NCBI RefSeq assembly: GCF_001640025.1
Contig: NC_031673.1
Location: forward strand, 806,001 to 870,000
DNA length: 64,000 bases
DNA from: Sugiyamaella lignohabitans
Lineage: Eukaryota > Ascomycota > Dipodascomycetes > Dipodascales > Trichomonascaceae
Direction of reading: 5' to 3'
Under the pieces are notes generated by a model. That model was not told the DNA's origin, searched no databases, and saw only the letters and a list, made by a program, of their open reading frames with translations. Each line of letters begins with the position of its first letter. The first letter of the stretch is position 1. Of this stretch, positions 441-63,639 are shown piece after piece. The translations under genes and the position numbers were made by a program.

Positions 441-669
441 TGCCTCCGGCGGCTGGGGCTGCGCCCCAGACCCCACTGCTCCTCTCGCTTCGCTCGAGTC
501 GGGGCTTGGGGTGGCCAGCAGCGTGTTTGTAATTAGTATATATGTATTTGTAGTGGTAGAAACTAGACTCCTGCCAATAAATATCAGTTCACCGAACGCG
601 ACGGTCCTAGCAACCTCCCGCGAAGCGGGAGCCACGGGGTCTGGGGCGCAGCCCCAGCCGCCGGAGGCA
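441..669. repeat. Foldback element, F-A arm and R-B arm, wide spacing
   Basis: F-A arm 441-501 and R arm 615-669. The inner hairpin of the right arm is CTCCCGCGAAGCGGGAG, a paired T-to-C/A-to-G change relative to the usual CTCCTGCGAAGCAGGAG. The flanks (GGGGTCCGGGTG left, CACCCCGACCCC right) extend the inverted repeat with one mismatch. It lies between the convergent RING and bZIP stop codons, 19 and 13 bp away. Confidence 0.9.
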
Positions 670-681
670 CACCCCGACCCC

Positions 682-3338: not shown

Positions 3339-3392
3339 TGCCCTAACCCTCCGCCGCACAGCCGCGCCGGTGGACCCTGACGGGAGGTGGTC

Positions 3393-3453
3393 TGCCTCCG
3401 GCGGCTGGGGCTCCGCCCCAGACCCCGCGGCTCCTCTCGCTTCGCTCGAGTCG
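3393..3453 (+). repeat. Foldback element, solo F-A arm
   Basis: TGCCTCCGGCGG end, GGGGCTCCGCCCC hairpin, then the A hairpin ending GAGTCG. It is preceded by GTGGACCCTG, a 10-mer that recurs elsewhere in the window. Confidence 0.9.
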
Positions 3454-3982
3454 GGCGTCGGGCGGTGGGCAGTGCTGGGGTGGAGCAGTTCGGAGTTTGG
3501 AGGGGTTGGCGAGCGGTTTGAGAGGTGGTTTGGGGGGCTTCGAGATGGGACTGGAGGGCTGCTGGTGGTGGTATTAACTCGAAAGTTGTATATTATTTCG
3601 GTGTGAGAGTTTCACTGGAGTTTAATTGAGTCCTGACTGGTCGTTAATCTTGTTTCCAGTGGTAGGACCCTGGCCGTTATCGGAGGTTAGTAAAGCTTCA
3701 AAACGCAGGGTCTGCATCTTCTCATATGCGGCAGAACTGGTGCTATAGAATATGGTCGTAAATAAAAAATATTAATTATTATTATTAATAATATTATATT
3801 AATGGATAAAACTGTCAGGGTCCTTTGAATTTTCTACAGTTAGCAGCTGTGGGTCACCTGTACACCCTCTGAGCCGGACATCTCATTCCGCGACTGGAAT
3901 AACCACTTTCTCTCCGGTGGACCCTGCCGATCCCCGCCGCGACCCTGTCGAGCCCTGCCTCATCCCACAACCAGAAAAACCA

Positions 3983-3999
3983 CCCCCCCCCCCCCCCCC
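3983..3999. repeat. Poly-C run (17)
   Basis: Uninterrupted run of 17 C, about 30 bp before the foldback arm at 4032. Confidence 0.95.
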
Positions 4000-4031
4000 T
4001 TGCCATCCCACACCCCCACGATCCTAGCAAT

Positions 4032-4086
4032 CTCCTGCGAAGCAGGAGCCACGGGGTCTGGGGCGGAGCCCCAGCCGCCGGAGGCA
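4032..4086 (-). repeat. Foldback element, solo R-B arm
   Basis: CTCCTGCGAAGCAGGAG hairpin, GGGGCGGAGCCCC hairpin, then the CCGCCGGAGGCA end. Confidence 0.92.
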
Positions 4087-4742: not shown

Positions 4743-4892
4743 CTGCCTCCGGCGGCTGGGGCTCTGCCCCAGACCCCGTGGCTCCTGCTTCGCAGGAGGT
4801 GGCCGGGATCGTGGCAGGGTGGGGTGCCCCCAAACCTCTCCTGCGAAGCAGGAGCTACGGGGTCTGGGGCAGCGCCCCAGCCGCCGGAGGCA
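4743..4892. repeat. Foldback element, F-B and R-B arms
   Basis: Both arms carry the B hairpin (F 4743-4798, R 4838-4892), so the pair forms a long, nearly symmetric inverted repeat, unlike the usual A/B element. It is upstream of ICL1. Confidence 0.92.
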
Positions 4893-7060: not shown

Positions 7061-8020
7061 TTACTTTCGGTGGGGGGTGTGCCTCCGGCGGCCGGGCTCC
7101 GCCCGGACCTGGTTGTGCTCGCTTCGCGAGCGGTCTGGGGTCCCCAGTCTCGACTCGAGCGGAGCGAGAGGAGCAGTGGGGTCTGGGGCGCAGCCCCAGC
7201 CGCCGGAGGCTGGTGGGGAGCAGCAGTCCGAGTCCCGGATCTCGGAGAGGAAGATGGCCAGATGTTCGAGGTCGGTGCGGTTGAAGAGGACAGCGGTGGA
7301 GTGGGTTCTGTACTGGTTGGGGATCAAGTGGATTGGGAGGAGTAGGTCGGTTTGTGATTGGAAGGAGAGGTCGGGATTCCAGTCGGCGTGGTCTTTTGTG
7401 AGGTTGATAATGACCCCTTCCTGGGATGGAGGGAGAAGTTGGTCTGTTTGGGTTTGGGAGGAGGAAGGAGTATCTTTCCACCGTTGCATTTGGTATCTTG
7501 TGTACAGTCTGAGGGTGACTGATGTGAGGGGTTCGTGGTCAATGTAGTCTAGCTTCAGCAGCAGAACGTATTCAACCTGCTGAGCATTAGTGCTTCCACT
7601 GAGCCAACCTCTTATGCGTTTCTCAGTGGTTGCCATGGTCTGGGTTGCGGCAATCTCAGCCACTAACTGGGGAACAACTTGGCTTCGAGAGTTATGCGTT
7701 TCGAAAGCTACTCCAATATTTACTTGCATTGGTCTCATTCCTTTTAGCAGGACTGTTTTTCCTGAGAAGTTGATTCGTTCCCACTGTGGAATGAAGAATC
7801 GGTCACATAGAATTTTTAGTCTTTGTTCTAGCTGTAGTTTTGCCATGTACAGTAAGTTGGATTGGGGACGATAGAGTATGGAAGCTTTGTGTAGAATCGT
7901 AAGAGAATTCGATTCTAAGAGGTCACTGGTAGATTCAGTAGCCAATTCATCTTCATTTGACTTCAGTATCTCCAAGCTCTTTTCTGAGTGAGATAAGTGC
8001 TTGTTTTCGCTCCTGATCAT
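7061..8020 (-). CDS. Hypothetical protein with a C-terminus encoded by a foldback element
   Basis: I do not recognise this 319-residue protein. Residues 1-265 look like genuine coding sequence (mixed composition, motifs such as KLQLEQRLKILCDRFFIPQWE), with no obvious signal peptide, membrane segment or known domain. From about residue 268 to the stop the frame runs through the foldback element at 7080-7211, giving an ASGGWGCAPDP-type tail unrelated to the rest. Either the tail is a true fusion, or a frameshift or insertion removed the original end. The ATG at 8020 is the first in frame. It converges on ICL1, with only 41 bp between stop codons. Confidence 0.65.
   Translation of the reverse strand: MIRSENKHLSHSEKSLEILKSNEDELATESTSDLLESNSLTILHKASILYRPQSNLLYMAKLQLEQRLKILCDRFFIPQWERINFSGKTVLLKGMRPMQVNIGVAFETHNSRSQVVPQLVAEIAATQTMATTEKRIRGWLSGSTNAQQVEYVLLLKLDYIDHEPLTSVTLRLYTRYQMQRWKDTPSSSQTQTDQLLPPSQEGVIINLTKDHADWNPDLSFQSQTDLLLPIHLIPNQYRTHSTAVLFNRTDLEHLAIFLSEIRDSDCCSPPASGGWGCAPDPTAPLAPLESRLGTPDRSRSEHNQVRAEPGRRRHTPHRK
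7080..7211. repeat. Foldback element, F-C arm and R-A arm, inside a coding 3' end
   Basis: F-C arm 7080-7131 has the variant stems CGGGCTCCGCCCG and GCTCGCTTCGCGAGC; R-A arm 7151-7211. It lies between ICL1 and the convergent orphan gene and is read as that gene's C-terminus. Confidence 0.88.
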
Positions 8021-10618
8021 ATTTAATTATGTGCGTGAAATCACCCTGACATTTTTAGACAGTTCCTGATGATTACATCTTTGACCCTATTAATGGCTAC
8101 CTGTAAGGCATAACCAACTTGAGGGTCATTTATTATGTTAGAACATCCTCCTGCTCTCAGCAGCACACTTTCTTCGTTGTTGCTTTTTTAATCTTACGTG
8201 AAATCTCTTCAGTCGTGGAAAGTAAAACTTAACTAGTTTTAGTTGAAGTGGAAGTGGAAGTGGTAGACATCGCTATTTCTATGTATTGTCTTCCTACTTC
8301 GACATATAGGGTTGGACAGAATACATATAATATATGGTATACTCTACTAAACAGTATTACAGTTGTCATGTTTGGAATAGTCAGAAATAATAGTAGAGAA
8401 TTTTTTTTTTTTTCTATACCTTGCCATACACACCACCAGCTAAGAACGAACAGGTGTTTGTATATGATATAGAGATCATATAGATGTTTGCATTTCGTTA
8501 TGCTCTGAAGCTACTCTTATGTGAGCCAAATGCAGGGTAAACTCATAAGACATTAAAAACTTGTGTTAGCAAAATTTCTTAAGAGTAAATGGATAAATGT
8601 TTTGGAGACGCCAGGGAAGATGGAGTAATGGTCTGCATGTGATGTGATGAAAGGCTGAGGTCTGGTCTATATATAGTGAACGTTATCATGCATGACGCAG
8701 GTCGATCAGGGGTACGTACACCTAAATATAGTAGACTAGACACCTCTGTTCAGAGTATCTTTGGAAATACAGACTTGGGTATATTACTGATAAATCTGAA
8801 GTATGACTCTCGCGTGTAGGCACTCTATCTTTTTGGATTGATATAATTGTTCCACCTGCCTTCCGAGCCCAACATCGCCATCTTCGAATCAGGTACAAAC
8901 TCAGAGAAGCTCGCGAAGCGAGCACAACCAGGTCCGGGCGGAGCCCGGCCGCCGGAGGCATGCCCACCCGGAAACCAGAACCTCCCCCCTAGAATCTAAT
9001 TTAATAATTTAGGTACATTGAAGTGGCATTGTATTTGGATTTTGAATTAACTAAACAAAATATAAGAATATTTGACAGAAACTCTGAGCTTTGGTGACTA
9101 CTGTCTTTGATGCTTTTACAGAGTCATCTGCAATGATCAATCCAACTTATTCCATTGTACTACTTTACTGCTAGTCAACCTTCTCCAGTAGTTGCTGGAG
9201 TCTAATGTTCTAGGCCATCTAAGCTGATACGAATGTGTATGTCCCGTTCCGTTTAAAAAAATCTAATAAGCCTGTTGAAAAGGTTCTTTTGTTTCCAGAA
9301 TAGTCCTTGCAAACGCCAGTCGCGACGAGAAATCATGTTCTATTACCCACCCCCAACTCATAACCATTTTAGACCCACCCACAATATGCTATACCTGAAT
9401 CGTATCTGTAAGAGGTAGTTTATATAGCGATTTGCGTAAGACCAGAGCCAGAAGTTAATACAGGAACTGGGAACTCGGTCGCTGTTATAGAATGAAATGC
9501 TAGTGATGTTTCAGGTTGACAAGTTGTCTGAGATACTAGTACTTGCAAGGACTATGGGAATCAACGATTCATTTCTTGAAAAAAAATAAAAACTAATCCT
9601 GGCTGACAAGGTAACTACGGCATTTTAAGACTAGTAAGTTATGAGACAAATGCCCAACTCCCATCTCTAAAAGCACGTCCCCATTCTACTCGCGTGACGA
9701 TATCAACAGATCGACAGTATGGCACCACTGCCAAAAAAATAGCAAATGGCAAATGTGGCCAACCTTTATCCGAAATGTATGTAATCTAAAAAATAAAAGA
9801 TATCTTTGGAAGATTCAAGACAACAGCAAGTTTCTTATATTCTGCTGATAATTGATAAATTATTGATACTAATAAATTTTAGAGGTGAAAGTTGGGTCAA
9901 TATCGACTGGTCCAGGGGTTGCTCAAAATATGTCAATTACGCATAGCCTCCCCACAGCCTCGCTTGCGCGTCAGTAGTCCTAATTTCGGTTTAATCCATC
10001 ACCACTTACCTCGTTGACAATCTTTTATGTGCGTTTGACATCATTAAACTTTGTTACTTTTTTTTTGCCGTCAATAATATTTTTGGTTAGTAAGTTTTTT
10101 ATTTTTATTTTCACTTGTCAGTGTACCTGAGTGCCAGCCCCATTGGCTACTTGAGACTTCAGAGTTGTAATCATCTGACTTTGCTTGTCTGGAGCGGCTT
10201 TTACACTACATTCAGGAACTGTCTGACTTCATTTTTATTAGGAATTGAACTGACCTTTAGTCTCTAGTTGAGTTGAAATTGGACTTTAGTTGTTAATTTC
10301 ACTTGTACAGGACAGTTTGTCGCTGGATATTACTATCAACGAAGAATTGGTAACCTGTCTACTCCGTATTATTTTGGTTGCTTTAGTTAAAGGACAGGTT
10401 CACGTTCAAGGTATTTACGATACATCGTTTCAACTATTTCAACCTGTTTAAACCTGCCTTTGGTTGATACAAATAATCGTTTATCGTGATTTGATCTGAT
10501 TTTGGTTCAATTTTTGGTTTGATTTTATTTGATTTTGGTTTGTTTGGTTTGACTTATTTTTGGTGAGATTGGCTTAATTAAAGCTTGGTTCATTTCGACG
10601 CTGTGAAGTACATTAAAA
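8021..10618. other. Long AT-rich intergenic region, one solo element
   Basis: 2.6 kb between two divergent genes, without an ORF I can support. It holds a solo foldback arm at 8909-8960 and T-rich tracts in the last 600 bp, which are probably the promoter and leader of the RhoGAP gene. I looked for tRNA B boxes and for snRNA 5' and loop motifs and found none. A non-coding RNA or an origin cannot be excluded. Confidence 0.5.
8909..8960 (-). repeat. Foldback element, solo R-C arm
   Basis: GCTCGCGAAGCGAGC hairpin, CGGGCGGAGCCCG hairpin, CCGCCGGAGGCA end. Both stems differ from the common form by changes that keep pairing. Confidence 0.88.
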
Positions 10619-12969: not shown

Positions 12970-13108
12970 TGCCTCCGGCGGCTGGGGCGCGGCCCCGGAC
13001 CCCGTGGCTCCTCTCGCTCTGCTCGAGTCGTTTTCGTCGACGGTCCCAGCCATCTCCTGCGAAGCAGGAGCCACGGGGTCTGGGGCGGAGCCCCAGCCGC
13101 CGGAGGCA
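12970..13108 (+). repeat. Full-length foldback element (A/B), convergent 3' interval
   Basis: F-A arm 12970-13030, spacer containing GTCGACGGTCCCAGCC, R-B arm 13054-13108; 139 bp. It lies 44 bp after the RhoGAP stop and 34 bp after the cullin stop, so both mRNAs should contain part of it. Confidence 0.93.
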
Positions 13109-16345: not shown

Positions 16346-17261
16346 ATGGCATCGCGATTAGCGTCAATCTACGGCACAGAACAGGACAAAGTCAACTGGT
16401 AAGTAACGAGACTCAACTCAGGGTTCTCTTTTGTCTCCTTTTCATGGGTCTACAGGAGGTTTGGTCTCAAGCCTGATTCTCATGTTCTCAGGATGACATA
16501 AGGATTTCGCACCGACTCGAGCGAAGCGAGAGGAGCAGTGGGGTCTGGGGCGCAGCCCCAGCCGCCGGAGGCAGTCCTCGGACCGTAGTTCCTGACGGGA
16601 TGAGTGTTCAGGTACTCAGGAAGGACCCAAGAACAGCCAAGGAAAGATGCTATTGAAGTAGGGAATCGAATACTAACAGAAATACAGCTCGTTCTACTAT
16701 AAAATAGGAGCATGTCGACACGGTGACAAGTGCTCGAGGAAGCATATAAAGCCAGTGTACAGTCAGACAGTCATGTGTCCCAACCTGTATCCAAATCCAG
16801 ATCTACTGAGCAGGGTGCCATTATCAGAAAACGAGAAACAAGAGCGGTTTGATGCGTTCTACGAGGATTTCTTCTGTGAAGCATCACTAATAGGAAAATT
16901 AGAAGAGGTCGTGGTATGTGAGAATAACAACGAGCATCTCATGGGCAACGTATATGCACGATTTTCATACGAAGAAGATGCACAAAAAGCGCGAGATATC
17001 TTTAATAGTCGATGGTACGGGGGTCGACCAGTTTATTGTGAACTGAGCCCTGTCACAGATTTCCAAGAAGCCTGCTGTCGTCAGTACGACGTAGGCCAGT
17101 GCTCGCGTGGAGGACACTGTAATTTCATCCATGCCCGCCGACCAACGCGGTCTCTGCTTAAAGAGCTGAAAGACTCGCAAAGAAAGTACCGACTTCTGAA
17201 GGGTCTAGACGACTCGGACGACGAATCGCCCTCGCCAGACAGACGGAGGCGCCGCTACTAG
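16346..17261 (+). CDS. U2AF small subunit (U2AF35/23), one intron
   Basis: Recognises the 3' splice-site AG as a heterodimer with U2AF large subunit. Exons 16346-16398 and 16688-17261; intron 16399-16687 (289 bp) with donor GTAAGT, branch TACTAAC at 16671-16677 and acceptor ATACAG. The spliced product is 208 residues: MASRLASIYGTEQDKVN, then the first CCCH zinc finger (CSFYYKIGACRHGDKC...H, split by the intron at its first Cys), the UHM/RRM-like domain (GNVYARFSYEEDAQKA, RWYGGRPVYCELSPVTDF), and the second finger CCRQYDVGQCSRGGHCNFIH. The tail is short (RRRRRY) and lacks a real RS domain. The intron carries a solo foldback arm. S. cerevisiae has lost this gene. Confidence 0.95.
16513..16573 (-). 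repeat. Foldback element, solo R-A arm inside the U2AF intron
   Basis: CGACTCGAGCGAAGCGAG hairpin, GGGGCGCAGCCCC hairpin, CCGCCGGAGGCA end. It lies between donor and branch point. Confidence 0.92.
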
Positions 17262-17654: not shown

Positions 17655-17793
17655 TGCCTCCGGCGGCTGGGGCTCCGCCCCAGACCCTGGTTGCTCCTCT
17701 CGCTGCGCTCGAGTCGTTTCGTGACGGTCCCAGTCATCTCCTGCGAAGCAGGAGCAACCAGGGTCTGGGGCGGAGCCCCAGCCGCCGGAGGCA
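17655..17793 (+). repeat. Full-length foldback element (A/B), convergent 3' interval
   Basis: F-A 17655-17716, R-B 17738-17793. It lies 44 bp after the STE14 stop and about 390 bp after the U2AF stop. The A-hairpin loop is GCTGCGC rather than GCTTCGC. Confidence 0.93.
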
Positions 17794-18656: not shown

Positions 18657-19438
18657 TGCCAGCCACTTCACACACTCACGATCTTACACACACAAAATCC
18701 CACACAAAACCAACCAAAAAAAAGCACCATCAACCGAACTCGAAAAAAGCCTTCAACACCGTCTTATTTATATATTTCAACATGCCTCACTCACTCCATG
18801 CAATCAACATTTGAAAAGAAGAAGAAGATTATTTCCTCTTTGGGACATATAATACAACTGGCGCTCCGGCCGGGAATACTGGGCCTACCGGGGTTCACCT
18901 GGGGACGGGGCATGCCTCCGGCGGCTGGGGCTCCGCCCCAGACCCTGGTTGCTCCTGCTTCACAGGAGAGCGCCGGCACCGGACACGAAACCGACTCGAG
19001 CGAAGCGAGAGGAGCCGCAGGGTCTGGGGTGCAGCCCCAGTCGCCGGAGGCACACCCCGGGGATACTGGCAGTACCGAGGTTCATTTGGGGTCGTGGTGT
19101 GCCTCCGGCGGCTGGGGCTCCGCCCCAGACCCTGGTTGCTCCTGCTTCGCAGGAGAGAACTCGGACCGGAGACGGAACCGACTCGAGCGGAGCGAGAGGA
19201 GCCGCGGGGTCTGGGGCGCAGCCCCAGCCGCCGGAGGCAGACCCCGACCCCGAGTGAACCTCGACTCGAGCGGAGCGAGAGGAGCCACGGGGTCTTGGAC
19301 AGAACCCCAGCCGCCGGAGGCAATGGCCCTCTCCGTGGACCCTGGTAGGGTTAGGTAAAAACCCTGAAAAGTCACGTGATGCATGAAGATGCAGTTGGCA
19401 GTTAAAGGATGGTGGAGATCTGGTGGAGAAGTTAGAGG
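18657..19438. promoter_or_regulatory. Divergent promoter, STE14 / TRS33, filled with foldback elements
   Basis: 782 bp, of which 18913-19322 is five foldback arms. The remaining roughly 250 bp next to STE14 and 115 bp next to TRS33 must contain the core promoters. There is a CACGTG-like site at 19372 (GTCACGTGATG). Confidence 0.6.
18913..19322. repeat. Cluster of two full-length foldback elements plus one arm
   Basis: Element 1: F-B 18913-18968, R-A 18992-19052 (140 bp). Element 2: F-B 19100-19155, R-A 19179-19239 (140 bp). Solo R-A 19262-19322 with a degenerate middle hairpin (TTGGACAGAACCCC). Both full copies are in the same, reversed orientation (B then A). Confidence 0.93.
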
Positions 19439-20193: not shown

Positions 20194-20370
20194 TGCCTCC
20201 GGCGGCTGGGGCTCCGCCCCAGACCCTGGTTGCTCCTCTCGCTTCGCTCGAGTCGGGCGTCGGGACCCCTCGTGTGCTGTTTACTCTTGAAATATGATAA
20301 TCTCCAACCCCCGACGCCGCTCGCGAAGCGAGCACAACCAGGTCTGGGCGGAGCCCAGCCGCCGGAGGCA
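20194..20370. repeat. Foldback element, F-A and R-C arms, convergent 3' interval
   Basis: F-A 20194-20255 and R-C 20319-20370. The middle stem of the right arm is TGGGCGGAGCCCA, again with pairing kept. It ends 14 bp from the OCA1 stop. Confidence 0.9.
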
Positions 20371-22373: not shown

Positions 22374-22985
22374 ATGGTCAAAAAGCCCGTCACCAAACGA
22401 AAAGACCCGTCGTCGTCGTCGTCGGCTGTGGCCTCCGTGGCCTCTGTGTCCTCTGACTTCAACAAAATCTTCGCCAAAGTTCTATCCAACTACAAACAAA
22501 ACGCCACGACCCGCACGACGCTCATTGACAGTTTCCTGGCCTTCTTGGTCGTGCTCGGCATCGTCCAATTCGTCTTTTGCATCTTAGTCGGCACCTTCGT
22601 AAGTCACTCCCCTGCTGCCTCCGGCGGCTGGGGCTCCGCCCCAGACCCCGCTGCTCCTCTCGCTTCGCTCGAGTCGGTTGTGTCCACGATCCCAGCCAAC
22701 TCCTGCGAAGCAGGAGCAACCAGGGTCTGGGGCGGAGCCCCAGCCGCCGGAGGCAGCACCCCATCCCCTGAGTAGCACCCAGGACTAACAGAGCAGCCAT
22801 TTAACGGATTTTTGGGCGGGTTTTCCGCGACTGTGGGCCAGTTTGTGCTGACGGCGGCGCTGCGGATCCAGACGAATCCCGCTAACTTCAGCGAGTTCCC
22901 GAACGTGTCGCCCGAGAGAGCGTTTGGCGACTTCGTGTTCGGGTCGCTGCTGCTGCACTTCATCGTGTACCACTTCATCAACTGA
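22374..22985 (+). CDS. OST2: Oligosaccharyltransferase subunit Ost2/DAD1, one intron
   Basis: Small essential subunit of the ER oligosaccharyltransferase that N-glycosylates nascent proteins. Exons 22374-22598 and 22797-22985; intron 22599-22796 (198 bp), donor GTAAGT, branch GACTAAC at 22783-22789, acceptor GAGCAG. The product is 137 residues. Exon 1 gives a Ser-rich N-terminus and the first membrane helix (LIDSFLAFLVVLGIVQFVFCILVGTF). Exon 2 gives PFNGFLGGFSATVGQF, LRIQTNP, the DAD1 signature SPERAFGDF, and a final hydrophobic helix. About 70% of the intron is one complete foldback element. CTG codons fall at conserved leucines here, showing standard CTG decoding. It converges on RAS2. Confidence 0.96.
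22616..22755 (+). repeat. Full-length foldback element (A/B) inside the OST2 intron
   Basis: F-A 22616-22676, R-B 22700-22755; 140 of the 198 intron bases, leaving 17 bp after the donor and 27 bp before the branch point. Confidence 0.95.
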
Positions 22986-23029: not shown

Positions 23030-23272
23030 TGCCTCCGGCAGCCGGTGAAATTCGACGGGTGGGTGCTGCCTCCGGCGGCCGGGCTCTGCCCGGACCCGTA
23101 GCTCGCTTCGCTCGAGACGTGGGGTCCCAGCAGCTGGACCGAATCACCAGGGTCCCAGCCAACTCCTGCGAAGCAGGAGCCACGGGGTCTGGGGCGCAGC
23201 CCCAGCCGCCGGAGGCAGCACCGACCCGTGAAGTTCAACCCGGGTCCGGGCAGAGCCCGGCCGCCGGAGGCA
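23030..23272. repeat. Composite foldback locus, OST2/RAS2 convergent interval
   Basis: Fragment 23030-23045 (CTCCGGCAGCCGG); F arm 23067-23118 with the CGGGCTCTGCCCG stem and a hybrid C/A hairpin; R-B arm 23163-23217; further R fragment 23241-23272. At least two generations of insertion or rearrangement are visible. Confidence 0.85.
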
Positions 23273-25502: not shown

Positions 25503-25640
25503 TGCCTCCGGCGGCTGGGGCTGCGCCCCAGACCCCGCTGCTCCTCTCGCTTCGCTCGAGTCGGTTGTGTAGGGCCCCCAGCAGTCTCCTGCGAAGCAGG
25601 AGCTACGGGGTCTGGGGCAGCGCCCCAGCCGTGGGAGGCA
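25503..25640 (+). repeat. Full-length foldback element with matched flanks
   Basis: F-A 25503-25563, R-B 25586-25640 (138 bp). The right end reads GTGGGAGGCA instead of GCCGGAGGCA. The 13 bases outside each end are exact reverse complements (GGGGAGGGGGTTG / CAACCCCCTCCCC). Confidence 0.93.
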
Positions 25641-25867: not shown

Positions 25868-26005
25868 AGCCTCCGGCGGCTGGGGCTCTGCCCCAGACCC
25901 CGCTGCTCCTCTCGCTTCGCTCGAGTCGGTCGAGTGGCTCCCCCAGCAGTCTCCTGCGAAGCAGGAGCTACGGGGTCTGGGGCAGAGCCCCAGCCGCCGG
26001 AGGCA
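25868..26005 (+). repeat. Full-length foldback element (A/B)
   Basis: F-A 25868-25928, R-B 25951-26005 (138 bp). It lies 228 bp from the previous copy in the same orientation. A decayed A-like fragment (TCTCGCTCGAGTCGG) lies at about 26307-26321. Confidence 0.92.
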
Positions 26006-26621
26006 GCGCCCCACCCCCCCTCGGCTGAACCGAGGACGGAGCACCGGTTCGGATTAATTAGAGAGAGAGGGGAGATGTGAAACCGGATAATAGCTAACCC
26101 CCGAGGGAAGCTGGTAGATGCGGCTGCTCACAAAGCAGTAATGATTGGCGGAGTCGCTGATTAGCGAAGAGCGCTCGCTAGCTGTTTCGGGGCATGATGC
26201 GCCGATCAACATTTGTGTAGTCAGTGGTGGGATATGGCGGGCCTAATATAACGTTCATGCCAGCGGGGCCCGATACATACCCCCTCGGGCCCCGTGGCGC
26301 CTATCGTCTCGCTCGAGTCGGTGCGTGGGGTCCGAGGGGTGAGGGGGAGGAGAGGAGGGGGTAGTGGAGTTGGATTAGTCGGGATTAGAGTTTAGCGAGT
26401 GCTTATTTTCTAGACAGAACGGGAATGGATGCTGACCCTGATTATGCCCAAACGAGGGGGCATGCAGGGTGGATAATTGTGGCTCGAGGAGTGATTTTGG
26501 TCGTTGCTATTTACAAGGTAACTGGTGAGATTGGTTGATGCTTGGATTGTTCAGAACTAGAATGTTCGAGAACCAGCTGCTGGATGGTCTGTTGGTCGGT
26601 TAGTGGCTGAACCGAGCGAGT

Positions 26622-26677
26622 CTCCTGCGAAGCAGGAGCAACCAGGGTCTGGTGCGGAGCCCCAGCCGCCGGAGGCA
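26622..26677 (-). repeat. Foldback element, solo R-B arm
   Basis: B hairpin, then GGTGCGGAGCCCC, in which one stem base is changed without compensation, and the CCGCCGGAGGCA end. Confidence 0.88.
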
Positions 26678-28565: not shown

Positions 28566-28705
28566 TGCCTCCGGCGGCTGGGGCTCCGCCCCAGACCCTG
28601 GAGGCTCCTGCTTCGCAGGAGACTGTGGGCCTCGTCGACGCTAACGACTCGAGCGCAGCGAGAGGAGCAGCGGGGTCTGGGGCAGAGCCCCAGCCGCCGG
28701 AGGCA
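28566..28705 (-). repeat. Full-length foldback element, reversed (B/A)
   Basis: F-B 28566-28621, R-A 28645-28705 (140 bp). Its spacer is the reverse complement of the one at 29394-29416 with few changes, linking the two copies. Confidence 0.93.
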
Positions 28706-29254: not shown

Positions 29255-29472
29255 GCCTCCGGCGGCTGGGGCTCCGCCCCAGACCCCGCTGCTCCTCTCG
29301 CTGCGCTCGAGTCGGGGGTGGAGTGGGGGAGGGCCTCGGGCGGCTGGGGCTTTGCCCCCAGACCCCGCTGCTCCTCTCGCTTCGCTCAAGTCGTTAGCGT
29401 CGACGAGGCCCGCAATCTCCTGCGAAGCAGGAGCAACCAGGGTCTGGGGCGGAGCCCCAGCCGCCGGAGGCA
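29255..29472. repeat. Foldback locus: F-A arm plus full-length element
   Basis: Solo F-A 29255-29314, then a full copy F-A 29332-29393 and R-B 29417-29472 (141 bp). The second F arm has TTTG in the middle loop and CTCAAGTCG at the inner end. Confidence 0.92.
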
Positions 29473-30353: not shown

Positions 30354-30434
30354 CTTCGCACGTGTGCTGTTTCCTCTCGACCAAACAGCTACCCCTGACA
30401 TTTCCCAATTAGGCAATGACCACCTCGGAAGGTT

Positions 30435-30567
30435 CTCCTGCGAAGCAGGAGCTACGGGGTCTGGGGCGGAGCCCCAGCCGCCGGAGGCACGAGGGGGACA
30501 GGGGACTGCCTCCGGCAGCTGGGGCGCTGCCCCAGACCCCGTTGCTCCTCTCGCTTCGCTCGAGTCG
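30435..30567. repeat. Foldback arms in reversed order (R-B then F-A)
   Basis: R-B 30435-30489 followed by F-A 30507-30567, so the outer ends face each other across 17 bp and the inner hairpins face outward, the opposite of the full-length element. Confidence 0.9.
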
Positions 30568-34518: not shown

Positions 34519-34579
34519 TGCCTCCGGCGGCTGGGGCTCTTCCCCAGACCCCGTGGCTCCTCTCGCTTCGCTCGAGTCG
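34519..34579 (+). repeat. Foldback element, solo F-A arm in a divergent promoter
   Basis: Middle hairpin GGGGCTCTTCCCC (one stem pair lost). It lies between PHO23 and the PPR gene. Confidence 0.9.
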
Positions 34580-34787
34580 GTAGCGGGGGGTTCCTGATTT
34601 GTTTTTTGAAGCAGAAAATTTGAGGTTTAAAGGAAAGATAGCGTTCTTTTTATTAGATTGACTGGGCATTTTGACCTTTGCCCTAGCCCTGATTTTAAAT
34701 TATCAGGTTCACGAGTTTCGGCAGGCAGGATTGGCCTGTAGACTGGTTTGTTTCATTGCACTTGGAAAGCCTTTTTACCTGGAAACA

Positions 34788-36828: not shown

Positions 36829-36979
36829 TGCCTCCGGCGGCTGGGGCTCCGCCCCAGACCCCGTAGCTCCTGCTTCGCAGGAGTTTCGCACGGATCCCTG
36901 AGCTTCTGGGACCGTCCCAGCAGTCTCCTGCGAAGCAGGAGCTACGGGGTCTGGGGCGGAGCCCCAGCCGCCGGAGGCA
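36829..36979. repeat. Foldback element, F-B and R-B arms, convergent 3' interval
   Basis: F-B 36829-36883, R-B 36925-36979. The spacer contains a partly duplicated GGTCCCAGC-type sequence. It lies 37 bp and 32 bp from the two stop codons. Confidence 0.93.
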
Positions 36980-39465: not shown

Positions 39466-42400
39466 ATGAAGTTATGGCCGGGAAGTTGGTATTTATTAAT
39501 ACTGTCAATCGCTGGTAGCATCAGCCGAGCTAGTGGTGAAGTCCCAGAAGAGTCTATAAACAGCTCGGTGCTGCGAGAACCTGGTCGATGTTCGCTGTAT
39601 GGAAATGTAAGCAGAACCCCTAATCAGAGGAAAATGATAATGGTCGACCCGGATCAGATCGACTCGAGCGGAGCGAGAGGAGCCGTGGGGTCTGGGGCGA
39701 AGCCCCAGCCGCCGGAGGCAAGATGGCCACCCACAGGTCTAAAGCTCGTGACTAAGATCTATGGAATTGAATGGATAGCAACTAACAAGATTTCTAGTGT
39801 GGTAAGAAGTCGTTTTTCGGATCAGAACTGCCATGTCCTGCGAATGAGGTTGCTGTGGAGCCAGATAGTAAGACAAGAGAGGCGTTGGTTGAAATCTGTG
39901 GAGAGCGATTCAGTAGTGGTAATGTGTGCTGTGACAGTGGGCAGATTGCTGCTTTGAAGAAGAATTTGAAAAAAGCAGAAGGCATTATTGCATCATGTCC
40001 AGCATGTAAAGAGAACTTTTTCCAGTTTTTCTGCGAGTTTACATGTTCACCAGATCAGTCGCTATTCTTGGAGATAGTGGAAACAGGAAAGTCTACAGCT
40101 GGTAAGGAGGTGGTTACAGAGCTCAATTACTATGTAGAGGAGAATGAGGCTCGAGATTTTTATGATTCATGTCGAGAGGTCAAGTTTTCTGCTACAAATG
40201 GTTATGCTATGGATTTAATAGGCGGAGGAGCGAAAAATTATAAAGACTTTTTAAAGTTCCTTGGGGATGAAAAGCCATTACTGGGGGGTTCACCATTTCA
40301 AATGAACTTTCCCTGGTTGAATAAAACGGACGAAGATAGCAGAGATCCAGAAGGTGTGAAGAGAAGCGATGTGGATATGCATAGCTGTGGAGACGAGGAC
40401 GAACGTTACAGATGTGCGTGTTCCGACTGTTCAGTCGCTTGTCCCGAATTAGAACCTGTGAGAGACGGTGGCAAAGGTCGACTGGCTGTAAGCAGATGTA
40501 CGCTGTTTGGCGGAAGGGTGTTGTGTTTCTCGTTGGCTGTGTGGGTGGTTTATGTGATTTTACTGAGTTTCCTGTTGATGGGTCTGTGGGGGTATAGATT
40601 AGTTCGAGGACGAGTTGTTAAGGCTAATGAGTCGTTGAGCCTGCTCTATGATGACGGTGAAATTGATTCAGAAGATGAGTATGAAGACGATTTTTACCAA
40701 CGACCAGCATTTCTCAGACGTCACAGTATAGGAACGAGGAGGACGAGTGATGGATTGGAGGAAGACGATGATTATGACGACGATGACGATGACGCCAATG
40801 ATAATAGAAGAGTAGCAAATGTCATTTATAACCCCCGTCACCACCACAGCACCGCTCCATACAAATTAAACACAGTGCTACAAGACGGGTTTTCACGGCT
40901 GGGGTTGATATGTGCTAGCTTTCCAGCCGTAGTGATATCGTTTTCCTTGTTGGTGGTGGTCATACTGTCGTTTGGGTTGATCCGGTTCCAACTGGAGATA
41001 GATCCTGTCAAGTTATGGGTCAGTCCGACCTCTTTAGAGTACTCTGAGAAACAGCATTTTGACAGTAATTTCGGGCCGTTTTACCGTGCACAACAAATGT
41101 ATCTTGTCAATGATACCGGTCCTGTGCTATCCGACTATGGTACATTACAATGGTGGTTCAGTGTGGAAGAACGGATTGGCCGGCTGCGCAGTAGCCATTA
41201 TGGAGTTTCTTATAACGATCTTTGTTTGAAGCCACTAGGAGATGCTTGTGTGATTCAGTCAGTGACACAGTATTTCGGTGGAGATATCAATGCGGTACCG
41301 GAAAACTGGCAAGACAAGCTTCAGTCGTGTGCTGATTCTCCTGTTAGCTGCCTGCCGCCGTTTCAACAGCCACTGAAAAAGGAAATGGTCTTTGGTGGGT
41401 ATATTGGCGACGATGTAATTACGTCTAAAGCATTGGTAATTTCGTTGGTGGTAGAGAATTCGGATGATCCGGAAAAGTTGGCAGTGGCCCAGGAGTGGGA
41501 AGAGTTGTTAGAAATGTTTTTGTTTTCCGTTCAAAAAGAAGCAGCATACCGAGGTCTGAGATTGTCTTTTAATGTAGAGATATCTCTAGAAAAAGAGCTC
41601 AACAAATCAAGTAACACAGATGTGAGAATCGTTGTGTTATCATATGTGTTTATGTTTTTATATGCATCGCTGGCACTTGGTAGCGTGACCCCTCAGTTGA
41701 GTCGTAGATACCTCGTCAAGTCGAAATTTTCACTTGGTCTGTTTGGAATCTTTGTTGTTCTCCTGTCGGTAATTTCGTCAGTAGGTCTTTTTTCATATTT
41801 TGGAATCAAATGTACCCTTATTATCGCCGAAGTTATTCCATTTCTTATCCTAGCAGTTGGTGTGGATAATATATTCCTGCTGACACATGGCTTGGAAACT
41901 GTGAATTTGACCCATCCGAACCTGTCCATTGAGGAACGACTTGCTCTGGCACTTGGTCATGTTGGGCCTAGCATTCTGCTGTCGACTTTATGTGAAGTTT
42001 CGGCGTTTGCTCTTGGTGCGTCAGTGGCCATGCCAGCAGTACGAAACTTTGCCATCTATTCAGCAGGAGCAGTGTTCTTCAACTCGCTTCTACAAATGAC
42101 AATGTTTATGTCGGCACTATCACTAGATCAAAGGCGGTCAGAAGATGATCGAGCTGATTGTTTTCCATGCATTCGCATTCCACGCATTTCGGGAATCTCG
42201 CGACCCTCGTTTTCTTCTTTCACAGCTCGAGTACTGAGCTCACCAAGTATATTCGATGGACAGCCAGGACCTCTACCATCAGGAAACCATGGAGGAACAA
42301 ATGTGTTTTCTGATATTATTAGGAAAAAGTATGCTCCATACATACTATCTCCCCAGGTTAAACCTATTGTTATTGCCATATTCACAGGATGGCTGGCCAT

Positions 42401-43838: not shown

Positions 43839-43893
43839 TGCCTCCGGCGGCTGGGGCGCTGCCCCAGACCCCGTTGCTCCTGCTTCGCAGGAG
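43839..43893 (+). repeat. Foldback element, solo F-B arm downstream of NCR1
   Basis: It lies 87 bp after the NCR1 stop. Middle hairpin GGGGCGCTGCCCC. Confidence 0.92.
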
Positions 43894-44013
43894 ATATCAC
43901 GGGCAAACTCCACCTAGCTGTTATTTCCCTGGTATTTGATAAAAGATACCATTCTATCTTTTCTAAAAAGGTTTACCTAACATTATCCTTCCAAAAGTCA
44001 GTGAATCCGGAGC

Positions 44014-45942: not shown

Positions 45943-46080
45943 TGCCTCCGGCGGCTGGGGCTGCGCCCCAGACCCCCCGGCTCCTCTCGCTCCGCTCGAG
46001 TCGTTCCATCTAAGGTCCCAGCCATCTCCTGCGAAGCAGGAGCCACGGGGTCTGGGGCAGAGCCCCAGCCGCCGGAGGCA
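45943..46080 (+). repeat. Full-length foldback element (A/B), convergent 3' interval
   Basis: F-A 45943-46003 (loop variant CGCTCCGCTCGAG), R-B 46026-46080 (138 bp). It lies 103 bp after the HMT1 stop and 42 bp after the VHC1 stop. Confidence 0.93.
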
Positions 46081-49100: not shown

Positions 49101-50006
49101 GAGCAAATAGTGACGGTCCGACAACACATACCGCTGTACAGAGAGCTAACAAGATACTGGCGTATAAAAGCAGCCACCATCTTCCCTCAGGGAATATATG
49201 CGATATCGCACCTGACTCCTGCCCAAAGTTGCTTATCATAGGCTCACAGAAACCCACAACATTCATACCACTATAATACCGTTAGTTTTGACCCTGGATG
49301 CCGACTCGAGCGAAGCGAAAGGAGCAATGGGGTCTGGGGCAAAGCCCCAGCCGCCGGAGGCAGACCCTCACAATACACACCTATTAAGCACCTGACCGAT
49401 ATAGAAAATGACACCTATACTTCCGCCAAACTCAGGTCCAAGACTTCGACTGATCATGTAATAGGCACCACCACCACGAACCGTACCGTTGGTGGAGATA
49501 GCTGAGATGGAGAGAGTAGTAAGAAGGTTGACTCCGTATGAAGCCAGCAGCAAGACCATCATTCCCAAGATTCCCGTTTGACCCAGAATGAATCCAAAAC
49601 GTAAGAACATCAGAATTGAGAGAACATTGAGTACCGTTGGTACAAAGACACCTTCAAGAGTATTCATTTTGCTATATTGCGAGTTGCGATGCAGCTTCTC
49701 CTGCTGTTCTTCGACAACTGTGATACTTCGATTGAGACTATGACTCGGCTCAAACGATTCACCTCCTGTGGATCCATATTTGACTTTGCTTTTGCGATGC
49801 AACAATCCAGTCTTACTGGTCACAGTATCATAGTCAGAGGAATCACCACCTCGCGAATCCAAACCATGGATAGCGTTGGCACTTAGGAGCACCGAATCAT
49901 CCAGAGCTATCTTCGGCGAGGTGGATCTGGATATTTCAGAGCTCACATCAGAGCCTGTTCCAGGCCGTGAGCTCTTTCCACCAGCTGAAAGACCTCCCGG
50001 CGCCAT
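46123..50006 (-). CDS. VHC1: Cation-chloride cotransporter Vhc1, one intron
   Basis: Vacuolar K+/Cl- cotransporter of the SLC12/APC superfamily. Exons (minus strand) 50006-49381 and 49270-46123; intron 49271-49380 (110 bp), donor GTGTGT, branch AACTAAC, acceptor TTATAG. The product is 1257 residues. The N-terminal cytosolic part ends at [29 protein letters not shown], the first transmembrane helix of the family. [22 protein letters not shown] follows, then exon 2 with the remaining helices (VNFSF-type [40 protein letters not shown]). The C-terminal half is a large hydrophilic domain with acidic and Ser-rich stretches. The donor is weaker than others here, and 61 of the intron's 110 bases are a foldback arm. 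Confidence 0.95.
49302..49362 (-). repeat. Foldback element, R-A arm inside the VHC1 intron
   Basis: R-A on the plus strand, hence F relative to the gene. Middle hairpin GGGGCAAAGCCCC. It is more than half of a 110-bp intron. Confidence 0.93.
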
Positions 50007-53193: not shown

Positions 53194-53923
53194 TTACGAA
53201 CTCTTCTGTTTAGCCCACTCAGTAAACTCCTTCCGTTTGGCCAAAATGTCCTGGAAAACGGGTCTTGTCTCCAGAGCAATATACGGACTATCCCACGTTA
53301 GTACCAGTCCCGGACTGCCTCCGGCGGCTGGGGCTCCGCCCCAGACCCCGCTGCTCCTCTCGCTGCGCTCGAGTCGTTCCGTCGACGGTGCCAGCAATCT
53401 CCTGCGAAGCAGGAGCCACGGGGTCTGGGGCGGAGCCCCAGCCGCCCGAGTCGTTCCGTCGACGGTGCCAGCAATCTCCTGCGAAGCAGGAGCCACGGGG
53501 TCTGGGGCGGAGCCCCAGCCGCCGGAGGCAGAACCCCCATCCACACTTACTTTTTGCCCTGTGATTGAAGGTCTTTCATGGCTGATGAAAAGGAGATGGG
53601 TTTTAGAGACCCCGCTGACTCGAAAATGGCAGCGAAAACGGCCAAAACAACACCGACTAGAGCTTCAATTTGGATCTGACGAGAGAGTTAGTGACACAAG
53701 CCCGACAATGGCAACTAAAATCGAATTTGACTGAGCCATTATCTCAAATGAGTCCATGGGTGCGAACAGACTGGAAACTTACGTCCAAAGGAAGGCCGAG
53801 GTTCAGCAGCGACGAGGTTACTGGCTGACGTTTGGTGAACCGGGAGAACTCATAGGCCGAGTACGCAGAGTGAACAAGCGCCAGAACCGCCACAAAATAA
53901 ACAAGTTTGGCGACAGCTGACAT
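53194..53923 (-). CDS. EMC5: ER membrane complex subunit Emc5 (MMGT1 type), two introns
   Basis: Small subunit of the ER membrane protein complex that inserts and folds membrane proteins. Exons (minus strand) 53923-53783, 53675-53551 and 53287-53194. Intron 1 53676-53782 (107 bp), donor GTAAGT, branch CACTAAC, acceptor CGTCAG; intron 2 53288-53550 (263 bp), donor GTAAGT, branch TACTAAC, acceptor GATAG. The product is 119 residues: first membrane helix and HSAYSAYEF near the N-terminus (MSAVAKLVYFVAVLALVHSA), LPLD/IQIEALVGVVLAVFAAIF with the second helix, then RPVFQDILAKRKEFTEWAKQ, the conserved Emc5 tail. The match is to the family from memory of Kre27/Emc5. Intron 2 is mostly foldback element with a tandem duplication. 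Confidence 0.9.
53316..53530. repeat. Foldback element with a 77-bp tandem duplication inside EMC5 intron 2
   Basis: F-A 53316-53376, first R-B from 53399 (its CCGCCGGAGG end truncated at GCCGCC), second R-B 53476-53530 with a complete end. The segment 53370-53446 is repeated exactly as 53447-53523. Confidence 0.95.
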
Positions 53924-54103: not shown

Positions 54104-54404
54104 TGCCTCCGGCGGCTGGGACTCTGCCCCAGACCCCGTGGCTCCTCTCGCTTCGCTCAAGTCGGGCTGGGGGGGGGGGGGGGGGGGGGGTGTCCAGAGC
54201 TCAGTCCAGGTGCTGGATTTGAGTTGTTCCGGGAGTGATTTTACCCGGAGAATCAGCTGTTTTCAACTCATATTTCACGCTTAATAAACTACAAAGAACT
54301 CAATTGCAAGAGGATCGAGACGCCATACCCCATCCCCGACGCCCGATTCGAGCGAAGCGAGAGGAGCAGCGGGGTCTGGGGCGCAGCCCCAGCCGCCGGA
54401 GGCA
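54104..54404. repeat. Two foldback A arms flanking 180 bp of other sequence
   Basis: F-A 54104-54164 (inner end CTCAAGTCG) and R-A 54344-54404. The interval holds the G run and AT-rich DNA, so these may be two solo arms or one element split by an insertion. Confidence 0.88.
54169..54190. repeat. Poly-G run (22)
   Basis: Uninterrupted 22 G on the plus strand, 4 bp after the foldback arm ends; could form a G-quadruplex. Confidence 0.95.
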
Positions 54405-58761: not shown

Positions 58762-58904
58762 TGCCTCCGGCGGCTGGGGCTCCGCCCCAGACCCCGCTGC
58801 TCCTCTCGCTGCGCTCGAGTCGTTTCTCGGGGGGTCCCCCAAGTAAAATCTCCTGCGAAGCAGGAGCCACGGGGTCTGGGGCAGCGCCCCAGCCGCCGGA
58901 GGCA
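58762..58904 (+). repeat. Full-length foldback element (A/B)
   Basis: F-A 58762-58822, R-B 58850-58904 (143 bp). G-rich left flank GGGGGTGTC and right flank CACCCCC are largely complementary. Confidence 0.93.
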
Positions 58905-59346: not shown

Positions 59347-59594
59347 TGCCTCCGGCGGCTGGGGCTGCGCCCCAGACCCCGTGGCTCCTGCTTCGCAGGA
59401 GATTTTACTGGGGGGAGGGTGTGCCTCCGACGGCTGGGGCTCTGCCCCAGACCCCGTGGCTCCTGCTTCGCAGGAGTTTTCTCGAGGAGTTTTCGCCAGA
59501 GGGTCATAGTAAACAGCCACCGCCCCCCAAACCCGACTCGAGCGAAGCGAGAGGAGCAGCGGGGTCTGGGGCGGAGCCCCAGCCGCCGGAGGCA
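59347..59594. repeat. Foldback locus: two F-B arms and an R-A arm
   Basis: F-B 59347-59401, F-B 59422-59476 (end changed to CCTCCGACGG), R-A 59534-59594. It ends about 140 bp from the CMC1 stop. Confidence 0.92.
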
Positions 59595-61688: not shown

Positions 61689-63290
61689 CTACATGGCACA
61701 CGGGACGTTAGCTAGGATCTCCTCGATAACCAGGTCTTCATCCCATTTATTCATCCATTGCGTGACGAGGTCAATATCTCCGCCATAACTAAGAGACGGT
61801 TCGTCGGTCGGCTCACACAGCTGGATTCTAAGAGGAAACAGCTTTCGTGCACTGATTGATACTATTGACGGAGTGACAAATTCATAGTCATGAAGTACAC
61901 TCAACGCTCGTACAAGATAGTGAAAGTCCTTGACTGCTTGGGGAGATACTCCTGAACGAACCAAGCGATGTGTGCGCAAAGCAACCACAATATCTTGCAT
62001 GTATCTTTGTATATTTGCAGCAATAGTAATAAGAGGAATCTTGTCAGCCATAGAAGATAGCAAGTTCTGAAATGATAAAGTATCTGCGTTGTCACTAGAA
62101 TGTAAACCCGGGGGTGGTGAAAAGTCTGGCAGGGTTGGTCTTCTACTCACTACTCCTACACCAAACGACGATGTGGATTTGTTGCTAATGTTGGTGTTCG
62201 ATTTAGTAAGTGCTGAGAGGTCATGCTTCCCTGGATACAAACCGGAACCCTGTTGAGTCGTCGCATTTACTATTGCTGTTTCTGAGTGTCGTCTATAACT
62301 ATCATCTTCACCTCCTCCAGAATAATATCCCTTGGGTGTTAATACAGAATTACTTTCTGAGGCTCGAGTAACCGGTTGTACTAGTTGCGGATCTGACATC
62401 CCACGTCTGTCGATATCTGTCAGTGGTGTATTGACACTCTCTGTACTGCCAGTACTGATGCCAATGCCACCAATGCCATTACCAGTACCAGCTGTGGCAC
62501 TAGTACTGCCATTACCACTACCACCAGCACTGACATTAGCACTACCACCGCCGACATTGTCACTGTTGATGCCAGCTCCAACTGCAGAAGACATCTGGCC
62601 CGTATGGGCTGGCTGGTCAGCATTTAAACCGTGGTCGTCATCTGTCTCAACGACATGCTCTAGTAACATATAATCACGTAAATGAGGCACCAGATTATGT
62701 CCATGTCCTATAATGACCAATACAAAATCTTCTGGCAGCGGATAGCTCTTCTTATTGACGACCAGTTTCCTCTCCACTAGGGTCGAGATCATCATCGTCT
62801 GAACAAGCTTTGCTGTCTTATCCAAGTTCTCTATAATCAAAAACGTCGGCACACTCACATTTGGATGCACACTTCCTTCATCATTGATATTTGGACTTCC
62901 ATTAACACCTTCTCGCTTAACACTCTCTTCATTATTGACATTCCCACTTCCATTTCCATCACCAAATAGATTCGGAGATCCAGAACCTGCAATCTCACAT
63001 TCTGTTTCATGCGAGAACTTGTTGCCATTCACAAGAATCGACTTCGCCAGCTGATGCCACGTCGTGTCAGCGTTGCAATGTACTACGACAGTCGCCCTGT
63101 CTTCACGAAATCCGAGCACATCGCGAGCCAGCGTCTGTAGAACCTCGCGAGTCGCACTCACCCGCTTCGACTGGATCACCAAATGCCTCCTCCCGACCGC
63201 AGCCACAACCAAAGCGATCAAAACATTCACATCGAAATTCTCATACTCGACACTGACCTGTTCACACAAACTCGCAAACGAACCTACCAT
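61689..63290 (-). CDS. Fungal Mg-chelatase-like/MoxR-type AAA protein, P-loop apparently degenerate
   Basis: Belongs, as far as I can tell, to a fungus-specific family annotated as magnesium-chelatase-like. Function unknown. The 533-residue protein has an N-terminal half with DVNVLIALVVAAVGRRHLVIQS, where a Walker A motif would be expected but GxxxxGK[ST] is not visible, and TFLIIENLDKT, where Walker B would be. A Gly/Ser/Asn-rich insert (about residues 220-330) follows. The C-terminal part (MQDIVVALRTHRLVRSGVSPQAVKDFHYLVRALS...FVTPSIVSISARKLFPLRI) resembles the helical lid of the chelatase family. ATP hydrolysis is doubtful. The ATG at 63290 is the first in frame. Confidence 0.55.
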   Translation of the reverse strand: MVGSFASLCEQVSVEYENFDVNVLIALVVAAVGRRHLVIQSKRVSATREVLQTLARDVLGFREDRATVVVHCNADTTWHQLAKSILVNGNKFSHETECEIAGSGSPNLFGDGNGSGNVNNEESVKREGVNGSPNINDEGSVHPNVSVPTFLIIENLDKTAKLVQTMMISTLVERKLVVNKKSYPLPEDFVLVIIGHGHNLVPHLRDYMLLEHVVETDDDHGLNADQPAHTGQMSSAVGAGINSDNVGGGSANVSAGGSGNGSTSATAGTGNGIGGIGISTGSTESVNTPLTDIDRRGMSDPQLVQPVTRASESNSVLTPKGYYSGGGEDDSYRRHSETAIVNATTQQGSGLYPGKHDLSALTKSNTNISNKSTSSFGVGVVSRRPTLPDFSPPPGLHSSDNADTLSFQNLLSSMADKIPLITIAANIQRYMQDIVVALRTHRLVRSGVSPQAVKDFHYLVRALSVLHDYEFVTPSIVSISARKLFPLRIQLCEPTDEPSLSYGGDIDLVTQWMNKWDEDLVIEEILANVPCAM

Positions 63291-63639
63291 GATTCGCTAC
63301 TTCACCAATCTCCAAGATCGGCTCTCTCTCCTTATCTAATCTCTCCGGATGTTAGGGTTCACCAGGGGGAGGGTTCTGCCTCCGGCTGCTGGGGCTCTGC
63401 CCCAGACCCCGTGGCTCCTCTCGCTTCGCTCGAGTCGGTTCCGTCTCGGGTCCCAGCCAACTCCTGCGAAGCAGGAGCAATCAGGGTCTGGGGCGGAGCC
63501 CCGGCCGCCGGAGGCAGGACCCCCCCTGACGACGCAGGGCTCGGTGATGCGGCGGAACTGTCGATCAAAATAAATTTATTTGGCTGATCTGTGGAGAGGG
63601 AAGTGGACAACAGCAGTTTTATTTATTTATAGAGACAAA
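63291..63639. promoter_or_regulatory. Divergent promoter with a full foldback element
   Basis: 349 bp between the AAA gene and UTP11, 40% of it one foldback element. Both core promoters must sit in the roughly 90 and 120 bp that remain. Confidence 0.55.
63377..63516 (+). repeat. Full-length foldback element (A/B) in a divergent promoter
   Basis: F-A 63377-63437, R-B 63461-63516 (140 bp). Left end CCTCCGGCTGCTG is altered; the right middle stem reads GGGGCGGAGCCCC followed by GGCCGCC. Confidence 0.93.

Follow-up and report, generated by a model that had tools for sequence, protein, structure and literature searches.

Hairpin doublets and their copy number

A stretch of 64,000 nucleotides from the yeast Sugiyamaella lignohabitans (contig NC_031673.1, C4:806001-870000; hereafter, the window) carries a short hairpin-forming repeat between and within its genes. 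The genome assembly comprises 15.93 Mb in four contigs, and the species is described as having 16.0 Mb on four chromosomes, 50% of it coding, with introns in only 5% of genes (PMC5499181). The genes of the window form an ascomycete-yeast set (e.g., isocitrate lyase, cullin, and an Aft1-type bZIP factor). Dispersed among them are units of about 57 bp (hereafter, arms), each made of two successive hairpins, which belong to a real and abundant repeat of the yeast nucleus for which we found no name.

Each arm reads, in order, GCCTCCGGCGGC, a middle hairpin (CTGGGGC-nnn-GCCCCAG), ACCC with a short linker, GCTCC, and an inner hairpin of type A or type B. The preferred unit is one A arm facing one B arm across a variable spacer of 21–23 nt (hereafter, A/B doublet), and the entire 137-bp doublet can also form one long hairpin. 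Folding of one copy gave z scores of -14.8 as RNA and -14.4 as DNA (200 shuffles each). A first-pass annotation of the window had recognised the two inner hairpins A and B; to these must be added a third, type C, whose junction differs from that of A and B, and some arms with another middle stem (variant-stem arms). An Rfam scan of the window returned only a tRNA above the gathering score and no family for the repeat, and microRNA matches in Rfam scored far below their gathering scores.

Among the 15 facing pairs in the window that are 125–155 bp apart, 13 are A/B doublets of 136–141 bp from GCC to GGC, i.e., 138–143 bp including the flanking T and A, which bears out the earlier description of twelve copies of 138–143 bp with the same order of parts. 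They lie at 12971..13107 (137 bp, +; between the convergent ends of RhoGAP and cullin genes), 17656..17792 (137 bp, +), 18914..19051 and 19101..19238 (both 138 bp, -; copies 1 and 2 of a 187-bp tandem duplication at 18870-19056 and 19057-19243), 22617..22754 (138 bp, +; within an intron of the DAD/Ost2 gene), 25504..25639 (136 bp, +; outer flanks complementary over 15 bp), 25869..26004 (136 bp, +), 28567..28704 (138 bp, -), 29333..29471 (139 bp, +), 45944..46079 (136 bp, +; between the convergent ends of PRMT and amino-acid permease/SLC12 genes), 53317..53452 (136 bp, +; within an intron of the minus-strand MMgT/EMC5 gene and followed, at a spacing of 77 bp, by a second B arm at 53472..53529, -), 58763..58903 (141 bp, +), and 63378..63515 (138 bp, +). 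The remaining two, at 4745..4891 and 36830..36978, are inverted pairs of two B arms (147 and 149 bp, respectively).

Abundance outside the window was sampled in twenty 10-kb stretches evenly spaced over the first 3.9 of the 5.9 Mb of contig C1 (200 kb, 1.3% of the genome), which together with the window make an unselected set of 264 kb. A covariance model trained on 30 C1 arms alone, with no window arms (cutoff E ≤ 0.01), gave 62 matches in the window, 60 of which were taken as arms once the matches of 22.6 and 23.4 bits, which scored lowest, had been discarded. These fall into 30 loci with a 300-bp gap, 32 with a 200-bp gap, and 29 with a 500-bp gap. The 12-base ends (at most one mismatch) occurred 59 times in the window and 108 times in the 200 kb of C1; the first-pass figure of about 59 arms at 31 loci is reproduced by end motif (59) and closely matched by the C1-trained model (60 arms, 30–32 loci). 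When the ends (at most two mismatches) were required together with the middle hairpin, there were 55 arms in the window and 112 on C1 (167 in total), and facing pairs 125–155 bp apart numbered 15 and 18, respectively (33 together). The family claimed from the window alone thus recurs genome-wide, and because the C1 density is 112 arms and 18 pairs per 200 kb, extrapolation would put the genome total at approximately 8,900 arms and 1,400 doublets. A first look over the whole genome listed 2690 candidates, 40 of which were scored.

Additional stretches (L051-L089), picked because they resemble the window copy at 22617, were kept out of the density and paired-versus-solo comparisons and were included for pair types, the GTAAGT count, the direct-repeat test, introns, A-arm variation, linkage, and the conservation of intronic arms. 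Stretch L006 overlaps the window and was excluded. L089 lies within L014, and this place was counted twice among the 83 pairs and in A-arm variation and linkage, and once among the 81 flanks, the 12 introns, and in the comparison of intronic with other arms.

The A/B type accounted for 77 of 83 pairs, 75 of which were 134–142 bp long. Between neighbouring arms of the 264 kb, a spacing of 125–155 bp was found in 33 of 61 facing pairs and in none of 50 back-to-back pairs (Fisher p = 1e-11). Both figures agree with the proposal of the first pass that a single unit of fixed length and asymmetric interior has been copied. The T before and the A after the doublet were both present in 70 of 81 cases; the outer flank has a G-rich tract at -14 to -4, and information is at background beyond about -15.

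Introns, gene ends, and conserved arms

The doublet at 22617 is held by a 198-nt intron (22599..22796, +; GTAAGT..GACTAACA..CAG) that measures 61 nt without it, and the spliced product matches the Pfam family DAD (1e-43); this intron is drawn as 293 nt when the longest frame is chosen. A 263-nt intron (53288..53550, -; Pfam MMgT, 2e-11) encloses both the doublet and the second B arm of the 53317 cluster. In general, GTAAGT words within 80 bp of the 81 doublets were directed towards the element (10 of 11). Introns were listed using common donors, a TAAC branch site, a length of 180–270 nt, and a frame score on spliced reading frames, and 12 independent doublets (13 rows) were found in introns of 187–263 nt, or 51–80 nt once the element is subtracted. 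In the 13 rows, the splice donor lies 15–32 nt before the element and the acceptor 29–56 nt after it. The element of stretch L079 also appears intronic (250 nt), though it fails the branch-site filter. A Pfam family was detected in 9 of the 10 spliced products scanned (of 12), i.e., DAD, MMgT, HORMA, TB2/DP1, cyclophilin, Sas10/C1D, PBP, cyclin, and PSD13, and by inspection the match spans the splice junction for DAD and cyclophilin.

A related search for element-free introns gave 28, the shortest of 46 nt; the 12 that measure 46–107 nt were credible and the longer ones doubtful. An intron of the usual 60 nt thus seems to gain about 137 bp by insertion, a count into which the outer G-rich tract would not fit. 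Introns held 6 of the 33 doublets of the unselected 264 kb, where 0.4–1.2 would be expected if introns make up, as estimated, 1.2% to 3.6% of non-coding DNA. A repeat inside spliceosomal introns recalls the fungal introner-like elements (PMC4457414), but an introner origin was rejected because the element does not carry the splice sites, which flank it. Two further differences are that subtracting the element leaves an intron of normal size and that only those 6 of the 33 unselected doublets were placed in introns.

Among genes of at least 250 codons, an element lay within 300 bp of the stop codon in 28 of 64 and of the start codon in 14 of 64 (p = 0.014), and the gene end nearest to a solo arm was a stop in 27 cases and a start in 9. 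Solo arms of type A were oriented with the gene in 9 and against it in 8 cases at stops, and in 2 and 6 cases, respectively, at starts. Convergent regions were occupied in 5 of 12 cases, divergent in 3 of 9, and tandem in 13 of 22; convergent regions were denser in arms per kb. Arms numbered 0 to 15 per block of about 10 kb, and across 26 such blocks arm density correlated with GC content measured without the arms (rho = 0.81). The correlation of arm density with the third-position GC of long frames was weaker (rho = 0.52, 26 blocks).

A total of 76 of 192 arms were outside facing pairs of <300 bp (42 A, 21 B, and 13 of another type). The first-pass annotation had put everything besides the full copies down to solo arms and fragments. 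Solo arms are indeed present, but they are not merely fragments: they have the sharp 5' end seen in doublets, their 3' ends follow a separate consensus, and they look like a separate population more than broken doublets.

Variation among A arms was measured on the 114 ungapped of 149. Head, stems, and junction vary by 0–4%, compared with 7, 18, and 29% at the positions of the middle loop, 13, 35, and 39% in the linker, and 43% at the centre of the inner loop. The inner loop is T[N]C (N = any base; GNA on the opposite strand) in 139 of 143 A arms and TTC in 105 of 108 B arms; GNA loops, with their sheared G-A pair, are reported to be very stable in DNA (PMC6479982). A contrast of loop with stem has likewise been argued to reflect constraint in the mitochondrial element GC42, in the account given by PMC4478555. 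Copies differ by 35% in the spacer, as calculated from those 12 of the 23 spacers examined that are 23 nt long. The variable sites occurred in 43 combinations in 115 A arms, and strong linkage was seen solely between the middle loop and the linker.

When the halves of the 187-bp tandem duplication (18870-19056 versus 19057-19243) are compared, the arms show 5 differences in 114 positions and the remainder 19 in 73. Should both copies stem from a single event, recent arrival could not account for this contrast. Pooling the flagged tandem pairs (12 of 28, some with a common arm) gave 29 of 798 in arms and 92 of 379 elsewhere, a comparison biased to conserved arms since both arms had to be recognisable. 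No change at fixed sites was found in 18 of 22 intronic arms and 50 of 65 other paired arms, and this similarity within introns and elsewhere disfavours a role linked specifically to gene ends. Conservation of the arms continues after insertion, contrary to what would be expected of a simple mobile repeat, and may be due either to selection acting at individual copies or to conversion among them.

Flanks were compared for 69 of 81 copies, those with another arm in the flanks being excluded, and solo-arm flanks were compared with permutations only. No target-site duplication with a set length and position was found in the 69 doublets, in line with the first pass, and the distances of repeats vary. 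A regular duplication was rejected although direct words scored above permutation (own 13.80 versus permuted 12.34, standard deviation 0.27), since such shared words turn up at random non-coding sites as well. A few copies may have a true duplication, and one copy has a flanking direct repeat of 13/13 bp (L018:8315). The outer flanks of 41 doublets were complementary beyond composition (490 versus permuted 414 ± 19, 0 of 10,000), strongly so in only some of the copies; the complementarity was weaker when all 69 were taken (13.97 versus 13.45, with 248 of 5,000 permutations as high).

Likeness to known repeats and possible modes of spread

The closest parallels are with two systems of other genetic compartments. 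Like the bacterial REPINs as described in PMC3116915, the yeast repeat is an inverted pair of conserved palindromic arms with a fixed length and a variable spacer, in which the whole unit folds, singlets occur alongside doublets, and copies are extragenic. Unlike them it is nuclear, it is also intronic, each doublet has two different inner hairpins, and no Y1/RAYT was found. With the mitochondrial GC42 (PMC4478555) it shares GC-rich hairpins and substitutions mostly in loops; unlike GC42 it is nuclear (contigs of 2.3–5.9 Mb with nuclear genes), approximately three times longer, located at introns and gene ends, and without a regular target duplication. Merger and shuffling are reported for the GC clusters of yeast mitochondria, whose mechanism is left undecided (PMC4478555).

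The outer-arm pattern (29 fixed bases) occurred exactly in four contigs of the bacterial GTDB collection, three Desulfovibrio-type and one an Acetobacteraceae metagenome-assembled genome (MAG). The MAG has 174 + 169 = 343 copies of the terminal 18-mer GCCTCCGGCGGCTGGGGC (reversed control, 0); its order was sampled in 149 further genomes, none of which had a copy. Among ten MAG stretches fetched, seven had an inverted pair and three a single arm within the limits of the stretch; the outer right ends are often T tracts, which resemble bidirectional terminators, and the frames around one copy looked bacterial by eye. The three Desulfovibrio-type genomes had 8, 37, and 10 partial matches to a 63-nt query, but the exact 18-mer is rare there, with a single copy in each of 2 genomes among 81 of one order. 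The MAG doublets resemble the yeast doublets in the identical terminal 18-mer, the inverted pairing, and ACCCC past the hairpin, but have a longer middle stem, no A/B inner hairpins, and a spacer of about 20–55 nt in the stretches examined. Convergence of GC-rich palindromes is regarded as a more likely cause of this likeness than common descent. A literature text search for a 16-base arm motif found no occurrence, an 11-base core occurs in 14 papers, none of which is on repeats by title, and the top-ranked matches of literature searches included no paper on this repeat by title.

The yeast genome has 13 matches to RVT_1 with open frames of 453–1783 aa. Three of these score equally and lie in 1145-aa frames (C1:3056215, C3:656590, and C3:703545), possibly recent copies of a retroelement. 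A link to RAYT was rejected, as six PF01797 loci of bacterial genomes were without the element ends. A 251-bp query with one doublet had no match in plasmids at E 1e-3. The 34-base outer part matched 78 plasmid records (E up to 10; 4 covering at least 80%). In phages, for which this outer part was the query, 18 records matched (6 covering at least 80%), and viral contigs had 0 exact matches to the outer-arm pattern.

We favour, with a probability of roughly 0.52, the reading that this non-coding, high-copy nuclear hairpin-doublet repeat is non-autonomous mobile DNA that works in the manner of REPINs and GC clusters, the likeness in working being drawn because the folded arms would serve as the recognised part. 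On this reading the repeat spreads, or once spread, with the help of a trans-acting factor that would recognise the folded arms. Insertion would add about 137 bp and leave no regular target-site duplication. Copies are located in introns and between genes, and stop codons have solo arms nearby more often than start codons do. Afterwards the arms would stay nearly unchanged while spacer and flanks drift. The data establish the anatomy, the copy number in the sample, the pattern of variation, the intron positions (from spliced reading frames), the lack of a regular target-site duplication, and the slower change of arms in one tandem duplication; the mobility, the recognition of the folded form, and the existence of a mover are what we infer here. 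Of the overall picture drawn in the first pass, the copied, fixed-length, asymmetric, genome-wide unit stands; it has to be revised in that solo arms are not mere debris, some doublets are intronic, and arms are conserved after insertion.

Several observations weigh against this reading. No presence/absence polymorphism that would show movement was observed, and conservation of arms in place suits host function or conversion as well as it suits mobility. No match to Y1_Tnp (PF01797) was found in six frames of the yeast genome, with control genomes positive in 5 of 14, and a search for a Helitron Rep-helicase gave 0 matches in the genome, a result of no weight because the controls were also silent. 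Strong direct repeats flanked 5 of 69 doublets, more often than random non-coding sites (8 of 400 adjacent, 2 of 400 spaced). The doublets have no bias between stops and starts (6 and 6). The intron filter would accept remainders of about 43–133 nt for a 137-bp element. Arms were detected by their heads and middle stems, which must still be recognisable; copies that have decayed escape this search, and conservation of these parts is overstated, though that of the inner hairpin less so. Tandem C arms of stretch L023 show little contrast (6 of 114 versus 3 of 24, and 5 of 73 versus 2 of 22), and doublets are not clearly better conserved than solo arms, in contrast to REPINs (mean changes per arm 0.69 in 62 paired and 1.17 in 86 solo arms, p = 0.08).

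The repeat could also have spread and stayed uniform with no dedicated mover, through replication template switching at hairpins and (GC-biased) gene conversion, which we regard as unlikely. It would account for the complementary outer flanks of the 41 doublets, as fold-back copying would yield, for the 43 combinations with strong linkage only between middle loop and linker, for arm density tracking GC (rho = 0.81), for tandem duplications of arms, and for the few copies with flanking direct repeats at no fixed position. The flank complementarity is weaker in the 69, however, and these processes alone leave unexplained the fixed 137-bp A/B unit, the like-sized insertions in introns, and the thousands of dispersed copies. 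A host function under selection at each site (3'-end formation, insulation, or a splicing aid) seems decidedly unlikely. It fits the slower change of arms in place, the solo arms nearer stops than starts (27 versus 9), the excess of intronic doublets (6 of 33 versus 0.4–1.2), and the fold z of about -14 to -15 of one copy, but type A arms at stops have no strand bias (9 same, 8 opposite), blocks of about 10 kb hold anything from 0 to 15 arms, conservation is alike in introns and elsewhere, and convergent regions are occupied no more often than divergent ones (5 of 12 versus 3 of 9), though they are denser per kb.

Miniature inverted-repeat transposable elements (MITEs) and fold-back elements are short non-coding inverted repeats near genes, and the yeast repeat shares with MITEs its short length, lack of coding capacity, terminal inverted repeats, and location near genes. 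Descent as a deletion derivative of a cut-and-paste transposon is nonetheless very unlikely: a few copies have flanking direct repeats (e.g., the 13/13 bp at L018:8315), but there is no target-site duplication of fixed length or place (5 of 69 versus 8 of 400 and 2 of 400), solo arms are common, and, unlike in MITEs, there are hairpins within each arm. A hairpin RNA retroposed by a genomic reverse transcriptase, in the manner of a short interspersed nuclear element, would draw on the 13 RVT_1 matches and on the variable direct repeats at few copies; a tail is seen at neither end and no regular target-site duplication exists, and we hold this origin to be barely plausible.

A bolder form of the mobile-DNA reading, which we consider doubtful, would make the repeat a eukaryotic counterpart of REPINs, a folded single strand moved by a nuclear enzyme without target duplication and perhaps sharing ancestry with the bacterial doublets of the same 18-base ends. 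It would exploit introns, because a perfect hairpin leaves splicing distances unchanged. To our knowledge, short non-coding mobile DNA is not prominent in budding-yeast nuclei. With about one arm per 1.8 kb, conserved folded parts, and copies hosted by introns, the repeat offers a tractable system for the spread and upkeep of hairpin repeats in a eukaryotic nucleus.

Remaining arms of the window

Solo A arms lie at 3394..3454, 20195..20256, 29255..29315, 30508..30568, and 34520..34580 (all +) and at 7150..7210, 16512..16572, 19261..19321, 39659..39719, and 49301..49361 (all -). Solo B arms are at 43840..43897 (+) and at 4028..4085, 23159..23216, 26618..26676, and 30431..30488 (all -), the last being back to back with the A arm at 30508. 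Variant-stem arms were found at 7081..7136 and 23068..23120 (both +), at 8904..8959 and 20314..20369 (both -, with an inner hairpin of type C), and at 23221..23271 (-; at 27.1 bits the weakest match kept). A degenerate arm at 32181..32238 (-) belongs to an 82-bp-spaced pair, and a type C-like arm is at 32263..32320 (-). An A arm (442-502) and a B arm (611-668) form a wide pair of 227 bp at 442..668 (+), and the A arm at 54105..54165 (+) has a wide gap to the A arm at 54343..54403 (-). Two B arms at 59348..59405 and 59423..59480 (both +) make a direct pair spaced by 75 bp, and a further A arm is at 59533..59593 (-).

A run of about 20 G lies just past the A arm within 54105-54200, and a shorter G run is near the B arm at 4085. 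Two long open frames of the window contain internal direct repeats, one at 51907-52371 (180 nt, two copies) and the other at 56618-56896 (75-nt period, three copies).

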